Positions 54,805 to 59,658 of a stretch of DNA of 64,000 nt are shown here, in pieces. Within the stretch, counting starts at the first letter, position 1. The number at the start of each line of letters is the position of its first letter. This stretch comes from SAR202 cluster bacterium bin87 (GTDB lineage Bacteria; Chloroflexota; Dehalococcoidia; Lucifugimonadales; UBA3495). The notes beneath the pieces are model-generated. The model had not been told where the DNA came from. It saw only the letters and a list, made by a program, of their open reading frames with translations, and searched no databases. The stretch covers positions 1 through 64,000 of the forward strand of contig MPNC01000005.1 in assembly GCA_002238825.1 (NCBI GenBank), read 5' to 3'. The translations under genes and the position numbers were made by a program.

Positions 54805-55230
54805 TCAGGAAGGACGTTCCCTGCGCTCGATCTCGCGTTCCTCAGCCTTGTGGCGCAACGGGCGACCCTTGTCCGGTGTGGGATCCTTCACCTCGCCGTA
54901 AATGGCGCGGCCTTCGTGGTCTTCGGGGAGATGTTCGGTGATGGGCAGACCTGCCTCATTCACGAACAGCAGTCAATGGCAGTACTTGTAGATCTGCATA
55001 TCGTCGCAGGCACAGATCCAAGTGCGGTGCTTGACCTCCTCCGTCTTGTCCGGATAGAAACGACAGGGGCAGAGCGGGCGGCCGATCTCGTCGACGTTCT
55101 GGGCCAAGCCCAGAATCACGGCTTCGGCCACACCCTCTTCCGGATGCGTGAATGTGCCTGATTTGTTGCAGTATCGCTCTACGAACAGGCGCATCCTTTC
55201 GATTGATTTTTCGCTGGGCTGATCAGCCAA
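54805..55230 (-). CDS. Ferredoxin:thioredoxin reductase catalytic-like selenoprotein, UGA=Sec at 54973-54975
   Basis: CPC-X16-CAC-X8-CH-UGA, then LLFVNEAGLPITEHLPEDHEGRAIYGEVKDPTPDKGRPLRHKAEEREIERRERPS to TGA at 54805-54807. TTG start at 55230 with GGAGG 6 nt upstream. Confidence 0.9.
54933..54967 (-). promoter_or_regulatory. Bacterial-type SECIS-like hairpin
   Basis: mRNA GUUCG-UG-a-AUG-a-GGCA[GGUC]UGCC-CAU-CA-c-CGAAC; starts 5 nt after UGA; GGUC loop 21 nt after UGA. Confidence 0.85.
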
Positions 55231-57064: not shown

Positions 57065-58927
57065 TCAAGAGCAGGCCGGGCGCAGGGAGCAAGGCACGGT
57101 GCATCCCGCGGGTACCACCATCGAGGCGCGATCAGGCATCACGCAGCCCATCTCGGCCAGGGTGTCCACCACTCGACAGGCGGGCAACCCCATCACGTTG
57201 GAGTAGCAGCCCGACAGCAGGGAGGCGGGCCGGAAGTCCGTATCCTGGATGGCGTATGCGCCCGCCTTGTCCATCGGGGTTCCGCTGGCGATGGACGCCT
57301 CCATCTCCGCGTCCGTGAAGTCCCGCATCTGAACGTCGGCGGCGTTGGAGTCGGTAATGCAGCGCCCGGTGGCCGCATCGTAAACGGTGAACCCGGTGAT
57401 CACCTGATGCGTCGTTCCGCGCAGCCGGCGGAGCATGGAGCGAGCCTCGGCGGCGTCAGCGGGTTTGGCGATGGACTCGCCATCAAGTACCACCGTACTG
57501 TCGGCGGCTATGTAGTATCCGGACTGCGGGGATTCGGTGTCGGCCACCGCCAGCGCTTTCTCTCGCGACAGCCGGCGCACCATGTGCTGAGGGGTCTCGC
57601 CAGGCTCCGGGTCTTCAGGTATGTCAGAGGGCGCGACGCGGAATTCGATGCCCAGTCCAGACAGTAACTCTCGGCGCCGGGGAGACGCGGATGCAAGCAC
57701 GATTTCCGCAGTAGCCAGTTTCGCCACCAGGGTCACGACGCATTCCACGTGATGGGTTTGCGGAAACATGTCCACGGGCTGAATCGCCTCAATTCGATAG
57801 CCCCGGCTCAGCGTGCGCAAATCCCGGGCCAAAGACTCGGGGTTGCAGGACACATACGCGATGCGGCGCGGTCGCTGGGTCAGCAGAGCGTTGAGAACCG
57901 CCGGCTGACATCCGGAACGGGACGGGTCGAGGATCACCGCATCGGGCGCGAGTTCCATGTCCGGAAGCACCTTTTCGACTTTGCCGGTGACCAATTGAAT
58001 ATTGGCGTGGCCGGACGCGTTCACCTCGGCATCGGAGATGGCCGCCGTAGATTCTTCAACGGCAATGACGAGACGAGCCCAGGGGGCCAGCAGGACCGCG
58101 AAGGTTCCGACGCCGGCGTAGGCATCGACAACAACCTCTTCACCGGTAAGTTGCAGCGCGTCCTTGACCAACTCGGCCAATTGCGCCGCCTGCCACACGT
58201 TTACCTGGAAAAACGACGGCGACGCCACCCGGAACTCCTGACCGGCGACGGATTCGCGGTAGGTTTTCTGTCCCGTGGGGATGGGGACCTCGGGACTCTT
58301 GAGCGTGGGCTGGACGAGGTAATCGCCGGTGTCGGGGGAACGCCGGATCGCCAGTTGCGATGTTTCGGCGCAACGTCCCTGCAATTGGGCGAGAATGTCG
58401 TTGATGCCGTCGTCCATCAGCATGCACCGATCGATGCGCACGAAGCGGCGGCGCTCCCGATGGGTGAACCCGAGGCTGCCGCTCTCGCGCCAGATGTTGA
58501 ACCGGGCGTGGTTGCGGTAATTAAACCGGCGCGGCGACGCCAGGGTGGGCCGGACGTCCGGGGAGTGAAAATTCCCCACCCGCTCCAAGGCATCGCGCAC
58601 GATGTCCGTTTTGACCTCCAGTTGCGCGTCATAGTCGACGTGCTGCCACTGACAGCCGGTGCATTGGCCAAAGTATTCGCAGGGCGGTTCGACCCGGAGT
58701 TGCGACGGAGTGATTACCCGAGTCACCTGGGCGGCAATATATTTCCGGCGAACGGCGACGATTTCGGCCTCGACCCGCTCGTCGGGAATGCCGCCGAAAA
58801 CGAAAACGTCGTACCCGGCGTGGGAGGCCATGGCCTCGCCGAGCCGACCCCACGAGTGAAGGTCCAGCTCGACCACATCGCCGCGTTGAACTGGGACCGA
58901 TTCGTTGACGGGAGCGTTCGAAGTCAC
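57065..58927 (-). CDS. RlmD/TrmA-type RNA uracil-5 methyltransferase fused to Maf-type nucleotide pyrophosphatase
   Basis: CEYFGQCTGCQWQHVDY; DAYAGVGTFAVLLA; YVSCNPESLARDL; then Maf LASASPRRRELLSGLGIEF; AADSTVVLDGESIAKP. Confidence 0.9.
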   Translation of the reverse strand: MTSNAPVNESVPVQRGDVVELDLHSWGRLGEAMASHAGYDVFVFGGIPDERVEAEIVAVRRKYIAAQVTRVITPSQLRVEPPCEYFGQCTGCQWQHVDYDAQLEVKTDIVRDALERVGNFHSPDVRPTLASPRRFNYRNHARFNIWRESGSLGFTHRERRRFVRIDRCMLMDDGINDILAQLQGRCAETSQLAIRRSPDTGDYLVQPTLKSPEVPIPTGQKTYRESVAGQEFRVASPSFFQVNVWQAAQLAELVKDALQLTGEEVVVDAYAGVGTFAVLLAPWARLVIAVEESTAAISDAEVNASGHANIQLVTGKVEKVLPDMELAPDAVILDPSRSGCQPAVLNALLTQRPRRIAYVSCNPESLARDLRTLSRGYRIEAIQPVDMFPQTHHVECVVTLVAKLATAEIVLASASPRRRELLSGLGIEFRVAPSDIPEDPEPGETPQHMVRRLSREKALAVADTESPQSGYYIAADSTVVLDGESIAKPADAAEARSMLRRLRGTTHQVITGFTVYDAATGRCITDSNAADVQMRDFTDAEMEASIASGTPMDKAGAYAIQDTDFRPASLLSGCYSNVMGLPACRVVDTLAEMGCVMPDRASMVVPAGCTVPCSLRPACS

Positions 58928-59220
58928 GGGAAATATACTAACATTTATCGGGGTCGTGGGCCCGTCCAGGCCGCGCGTCGACGGTGGGGAGTGATCGTAC
59001 CGCCGCGCGCCCCCGCCCAACCGCGGCTCCGTCGAAACGGAGATCTCCATCCCGCCGAACGGATTGGAATCAGAGCCAGGGCAGGCCTTGGGGCGAACCG
59101 AGTTCGGTTGACCGCCCCACAGGCGGGGTATAATATTGCCAACATCCCGGCCGGCTAACGTGACGGCGGATGCTGTTTGCGGTTACGGCTACATAGCGAT
59201 TCAGTCTGGAGGAATTAGAA

Positions 59221-59549
59221 TGCCCGAACCAATCGAAGTGAACGGAGAGAACTGGCAAAACATCGTGATGGACTCGGATCTGCCGGTGATGGTGGACTTC
59301 TGGGCAGAATGGTGCGGGCCCTGCAAGATGATCGCTCCCGCTGTGCACGACTTGGCGCTGGAGTATGAAGGCAAGCTCAATGTGGCCAAGCTGGACGTGG
59401 ACAACGCGGGGGAAATCGCGGCGCAGTACGGCATCCGCAGCATTCCGGCCCTGATTTTCTTCAAGAACGGACAACCGGTCGACCAGGTGGTTGGCGCGCA
59501 GCCCAAGCCGGCGCTGAAGCGCAAGATCGACGCAGTGCTGGAGAGCTAG
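59221..59549 (+). CDS. trxA: Thioredoxin
   Basis: VMVDFWAEWCGPCKMIAP; YGIRSIPALIFFKNGQPVDQVVGA; GGAGGAATT upstream. Confidence 0.96.
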
Positions 59550-59561
59550 TCCGGTCAGCTT

Positions 59562-59658
59562 GGGAGTGGATGGGGCCCGGTGGCTCTTGCGGACTTCAAA
59601 TCCGTTATGCCTCGTGACGAGCGGGGTAGGTGGGTTCGACTCCCTCGCACTCCCGCCA
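59562..59658 (+). tRNA. selC: tRNA-Sec(TCA), CCA encoded
   Basis: Loop CTTCAAA; 6-bp D stem with 4-nt loop; long variable arm; TTCGACT; 3' end GCCA. One acceptor G-G mismatch. Confidence 0.93.

Follow-up and report, generated by a model that had tools for sequence, protein, structure and literature searches.

A stand-alone FTR-type catalytic chain with a predicted selenocysteine at its last redox position in a SAR202 cluster bacterium

Organization of the FTR locus

The window, by which we mean the whole stretch of 64,000 nucleotides analysed from contig MPNC01000005.1 of SAR202 cluster bacterium bin87, an uncultured member of the Chloroflexota, carries on its minus strand a gene for the catalytic chain of ferredoxin-thioredoxin reductase (FTR) that is interrupted by an in-frame UGA (Table 1). 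The coordinates listed for this gene in the first-pass annotation were correct, and the strand, which was not given there, is minus. The frame proposed to be open past the UGA was found to extend for 55 codons up to the terminal stop, and the product on readthrough is 141 amino acids followed by the stop codon. The motif spacing also agrees exactly with that initially described, CPC-X16-CAC-X8-CH-UGA, with both the ligand and redox motifs present, the first redox residue encoded by a Cys codon and the UGA located at the codon of the last redox Cys. This position, Sec86, is the last Cys of the CPC..CxC..CHC motif and corresponds to Cys87 in the Synechocystis FTR numbering. Two further elements of that annotation, a SECIS-like hairpin after the UGA and a gene for tRNA-Sec in the same window, were both detected, the hairpin being real and specific to the Sec genes.

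Table 1. Positions of the FTR gene, its signals and the associated features within the window
Feature	Position	Strand	Evidence or remark
Shine-Dalgarno AGGAGG	55242-55237	minus	6 nt 5' of the TTG start; from sequence
FTR catalytic-chain gene, predicted selenoprotein	55230-54805	minus	PF02943 (FeThRed_B), 79.2 bits (cut-off 22); aligned with relatives 64-95% identical
TTG start of FTR gene	55230-55228	minus	Read from sequence
In-frame UGA, predicted Sec86	54975-54973	minus	Cys in 62 homologues, UGA in 18
Bacterial SECIS hairpin directly 3' of UGA	54968-54932	minus	-15.8 kcal/mol, fold z = -2.66; kept in Sec, not Cys, homologues
Apical SECIS stem-loop GGCA-GGUC-UGCC	54955-54944	minus	Loop GG starts 21 nt past UGA
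Terminal stop TGA of FTR gene	54807-54805	minus	Second in-frame stop
Terminator-like 13-bp hairpin	54759-54730	minus	3' of FTR gene, before dihydrolipoamide dehydrogenase gene
Thioredoxin gene beside tRNA-Sec	59136-59549	plus	PF00085, 112 bits
tRNA-Sec	59562-59658	plus	Rfam RF01852, 66 bits

The terminator-like hairpin downstream of the FTR gene suggests that this gene is transcribed as a one-gene unit. An operon including the neighbouring genes of the pyruvate dehydrogenase type was considered and rejected, because this hairpin lies between them and because the gene order is kept in the closest relatives only. Elsewhere in the window, an open reading frame at 57065-59050 on the minus strand joins a tRNA (uracil-5-)-methyltransferase domain (PF05958) to a Maf-like domain (PF02545), and is matched in the related loci L046-L049.

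Selenocysteine machinery of the genome

In family searches of the own genome, selB (353 bits), selA (545 bits) and selD (373 bits) were all found. The SelD of this genome (locus L196, positions 1470-1550 on contig C42) is itself a selenoprotein, with an in-frame TGA near its N-terminus. Many SelD proteins are themselves selenoproteins. After a survey of 393 genomes of the class, selA was detected in 75 of 83 genomes with UGA-type FTR but in 31 of 63 genomes with Cys-type FTR, as counted among the matches listed and with kinship uncorrected. The estimated completeness of the eight UGA-FTR genomes in which selA was missing was between 71 and 92%.

Conservation of the UGA codon and of the sequence past it

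Among 80 public genome loci, the codon at the position of Sec86 was UGA in 18 and TGC or TGT in 62, and the UGA was matched with the Cys of both FTR homologues and PDB chains. All of the 18 UGA loci came from Chloroflexota records, those with a more detailed name being Dehalococcoidia or SAR202. In addition, exactly one in-frame TGA was present inside the FTR match in 72 genomes of the class. Taken with the 18 loci, this recurrence of UGA at the same codon is far beyond chance. For a sequencing or assembly error at a TGC or TGT codon, a change of one base would suffice; the probability of such an error is nevertheless negligible, since 12 loci of the own genus share this UGA, as do other genera and public records that were assembled separately.

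The sequence following the UGA aligns along its full length with the Cys homologues. In all 16 Sec genes measured, the extension past the UGA was exactly 55 codons long, the inner stop was always TGA, and the terminal stop varied between TGA, TAA and TAG. The dN/dS ratio in the Sec genes was 0.086 past the UGA versus 0.071 ahead of it. If the UGA were a true stop, the gene would be a truncated or degenerating FTR with 85 residues and no last redox Cys, and two observations are in line with such a view, namely that the standard ORF listing ends at this UGA and that UGA is also the real terminal stop of the same gene. The purifying selection past the UGA, however, contradicts termination at this site, as do the equal length of the extension, the variation of the terminal stops, the Sec-specific hairpin directly past the UGA and the sharing of this UGA by tens of species, making a true stop very unlikely.

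The open frame could also be explained by insertion of an amino acid other than selenocysteine, either through a reassigned code or by plain readthrough, as the frame stays open under whatever reassignment of UGA. Against this explanation, UGA terminates the same gene, TAA or TAG being used there in relatives, the other codons at the inner site are all TGC or TGT, and both the Sec machinery and the SECIS are present; insertion of a different amino acid is thus extremely improbable. On comparative sequence grounds, the UGA at 54975-54973 is almost certainly decoded as selenocysteine. The original reading of this gene as a Sec-FTR is supported by the alignment to Cys homologues, the Sec-specific SECIS hairpin and the presence of selA, selB and selD, and we consider it very probable that the FTR gene is a functional selenoprotein gene for a stand-alone FTR-type disulfide reductase.

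Searches of viral contigs for relatives of the FTR gene and of plasmids for matches to it gave none. One genome bin (G031) carries two near-identical Sec-FTR genes, L009 and L029, on separate contigs, which could represent either two copies or two strains.

The SECIS hairpin

The apical GCAGGUCUGC of the window SECIS recurs unchanged in the SECIS of E. coli fdhF, as compared with fdhF records, the inner 10 nt of the apical part being the same in both. With RNAalifold, the Sec sequences of the window-like group did not yield a consensus, probably due to variation of the loop size between 3 and 5 nt. A per-sequence hairpin test was therefore employed instead, in which a loop over the GG of the conserved Gly codon (+8) had to be closed by a stem of 4 bp or more, with synonymous recoding of codons as the control. 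Distinct Sec sequences passed this test in 16 of 18 and 39 of 39 cases, where synonymous recoding would have given 8.0 and 10.1; for the Cys homologues the counts were 5 of 51 and 1 of 16. Overall, the GG-loop hairpin was found in 55 of 57 Sec sequences versus 6 of 67 Cys homologues.

The same region is also conserved at the level of codon choice. GAA GGT CTT is unvarying across the 39 distinct sequences of one Sec branch, and at the Gly of this triplet set all Gly codons are in use among the Cys homologues. In the Sec genes the Pro codon that comes next has a third base that tracks its pairing partner (p = 1e-10, kinship uncorrected), CCG Pro codons having CG opposite in 17 of 18 cases; no significant link between this codon and its partner was detected in the Cys genes. 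The p-values for both codon use and covariation ignore the relatedness of the sequences.

Predicted fold and absence of the variable chain

The nearest solved chains are those of plant and Synechocystis FTR, with which all six Cys positions were aligned without gaps. An AlphaFold model of the window protein, made from 40 sequences, gave a pLDDT of 90.6 and was superimposed on the plant and Synechocystis FTR chains with an rmsd of 1.0-1.1 A over about 85-90 residues. As shown by this model, the predicted structure of the window protein has the FTR catalytic-chain fold. The variable chain FTR-A (PF02941), which marks the classical heterodimeric FTR, gave no match in the own genome, while the control search detected PF02941 in Synechococcus; the enzyme of this genome is therefore a stand-alone catalytic chain. 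Since homologues of the NADPH-type TrxB are present in the own genome, FTR should provide a parallel route to thioredoxin, and for the same reason its role as the sole thioredoxin reductase of the genome was rejected.

Candidate partners

Reduction of the thioredoxin family by the stand-alone catalytic chain is inferred, and the window FTR probably reduces thioredoxin. The thioredoxin encoded at 59136-59549 is a plausible substrate. Its gene, which is not next to the FTR gene in the own genome, is located about 4 kb from FTR and adjoins tRNA-Sec in the own genus, and the block from FTR to thioredoxin is conserved in the close relatives L046, L048 and L049. In L064, L065, L066, L071 and the Sec-type L077, five relatives in all, FTR is followed at a distance of 38-85 nt by a thioredoxin gene.

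Selenocysteine may be inserted and the main partner still not be thioredoxin. The enzyme would then act on a glutaredoxin-like protein or on a different disulfide, or the gene would serve as a switch for the selenium level, with the short form made under selenium shortage. FTR is followed by a glutaredoxin-like gene in L085 and L088, the genome is without FTR-A, and the solved stand-alone relatives 4tpu and 7pwe are named ferredoxin disulfide reductases, all in agreement with a different partner. On the other hand, true thioredoxin genes follow FTR in the five relatives above and the fold is nearest to that of FTR solved with thioredoxin, and we regard a main partner other than thioredoxin as unlikely.

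Proposed mechanism

FTR is the textbook example of the conversion of an iron-sulfur electron to a thiol signal. The division of roles between the two redox residues, Cys57 and Cys87, is here taken over from the Synechocystis enzyme and presumably applies to the window protein. Decoding by SelB, which, guided by the SECIS hairpin, would bring Sec-tRNA so that the ribosome passes the UGA and completes the 141 amino acids, is strongly supported by sequence comparison. By homology, Cys54, Cys73, Cys75 and Cys84 are predicted to be the ligands of a 4Fe-4S cluster, with the redox-active pair made up of Cys56 and Sec86. Following the FTR mechanism, one-electron reduction via the cluster would open the selenenylsulfide, and Cys56 would attack a disulfide in thioredoxin or in a protein resembling it, with Sec86 staying a selenolate next to a cluster iron or bound to it; the second electron would then free the reduced thioredoxin. 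Selenium at the cluster-side residue may be the better leaving group and may make the intermediate more stable.

According to the summary in PMC3838966 of Dai et al. (2007), the cluster iron of FTR gains a fifth ligand in catalysis. We tentatively propose that the repeated appearance of Sec at this fifth-ligand residue reflects a selenolate-iron intermediate, and that the CHU, CYU and double-Sec forms of FTR might be a main thiol-reducing system of Dehalococcoidia/SAR202. The repeated natural swap of Cys to Sec at the cluster-side residue makes its role testable with matched Sec and Cys enzymes, and selenium would allow the five-coordinate intermediate of the cluster to be followed by spectroscopy (77Se, Se K-edge).

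Branches of Sec-FTR and previous descriptions

A tree of 153 FTR sequences contained 61 of the CPC..CHU type, 7 of CPC..CYU, 13 of CPU..CIU and 72 Cys forms. The window gene is placed in a separate, chloroplast-like single-Sec branch which, as judged from the sequences, belongs to a type widespread in Dehalococcoidia/SAR202. On this tree the single-Sec label changed at least 10 times, at least 3 of the changes being forced by well-supported branches, so that the exchange between Cys and Sec has been repeated, its exact number being uncertain with the short alignment behind the tree. Within the tree, the UGA of single-UGA sequences was located in 68 of 68 cases at the last motif Cys, which in FTR turns into the fifth ligand of a cluster iron, and the thioredoxin-attacking Cys was replaced solely in the double-Sec form. 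The single replaced Cys is thus, by alignment, predicted to be always the cluster-side residue. Beyond the class, a single-TGA FTR match was also detected in one Chloroflexota genome, at G456:C292:3181-3441.

The double-Sec set formed one clade (SH-aLRT 97), its genes coming from other genera of the family, order and class of the window organism; in the searched genomes of its own genus, no double-Sec FTR was seen. The seven CYU sequences (L157-L163) carry a C-terminal rubredoxin-like domain, PF21349, together with a single UGA at CYU, and rubredoxin-fused FTR also exists in Cys forms (L131, L136 and L153). By its sequences, the rubredoxin-fused CYU set is predicted to be a second, separate single-Sec branch, the third branch of Sec-FTR overall. 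None of the NCBIfam models scored a rubredoxin-fused FTR above its cut-off.

The window FTR is a real selenoprotein gene, and the existence of Sec-FTR had been proposed before. Two Sec-FTR sequences, one of them with two Sec, were predicted in ocean metagenomes (Zhang and Gladyshev 2008, as represented in PMC2398784), and the other may have been an early sighting of the single-Sec type. Reviews of 2022 and 2026 include a Sec-FTR family, CxU, and the 2026 table gives two Sec and is tied to NF041072. The question of novelty, left open in the first-pass annotation, is thus answered in part: the kind was described in 2008 and the double form has been catalogued, but the single-Sec branch was not found described. 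In the searched papers and profile libraries we found neither the chloroplast-like single-Sec branch, its breadth within Dehalococcoidia and the repeated exchange with Cys, nor the rubredoxin-fused Sec-FTR. For SAR202 or Chloroflexi Sec-FTR, the literature gave nothing beyond papers naming FTR among selenoproteins, and the main text of deep-Sep (PMC12013277) has no mention of ferredoxin or Chloroflexi. Sec-FTR genes, cut at the UGA by plain ORF calling, are widespread in this marine and sponge-associated lineage.

Comparison with known systems

The window gene and the double form of NF041072 have in common FeThRed_B, Sec at the last motif Cys, a bacterial SECIS and an origin in marine bacteria. 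The double form is, however, CPU..CIU with Sec at both redox positions, whereas the window gene is CPC..CHU and lies in a different part of the tree. Accordingly, a double-Sec member passes NF041072 with 231.8 bits, whereas the window protein gives 45.4 bits against the cut-off of 160.

The catalytic chain of plant and cyanobacterial FTR (7bzk, 1dj7 and 2puk) shares the predicted fold and the six Cys positions with the window protein, at 41-49% identity over about 90 residues, but has Cys where the window protein has Sec. It works together with the variable chain, which was not found in the window's genome, and the likeness stops near residue 91, leaving unmatched the last 50 or so residues of the window protein, which form a conserved C-terminal tail. 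The proteins of Methanosarcina acetivorans (4tpu) and Desulfotalea psychrophila (7pwe) are, like the window protein, stand-alone, their FTR-type catalytic domain not being part of a classical heterodimer. In contrast, their similarity to the window protein is far lower (20-23%), they are larger (169-194 residues), with a glutaredoxin domain in 7pwe, and both are Cys enzymes, going by the chain descriptions.
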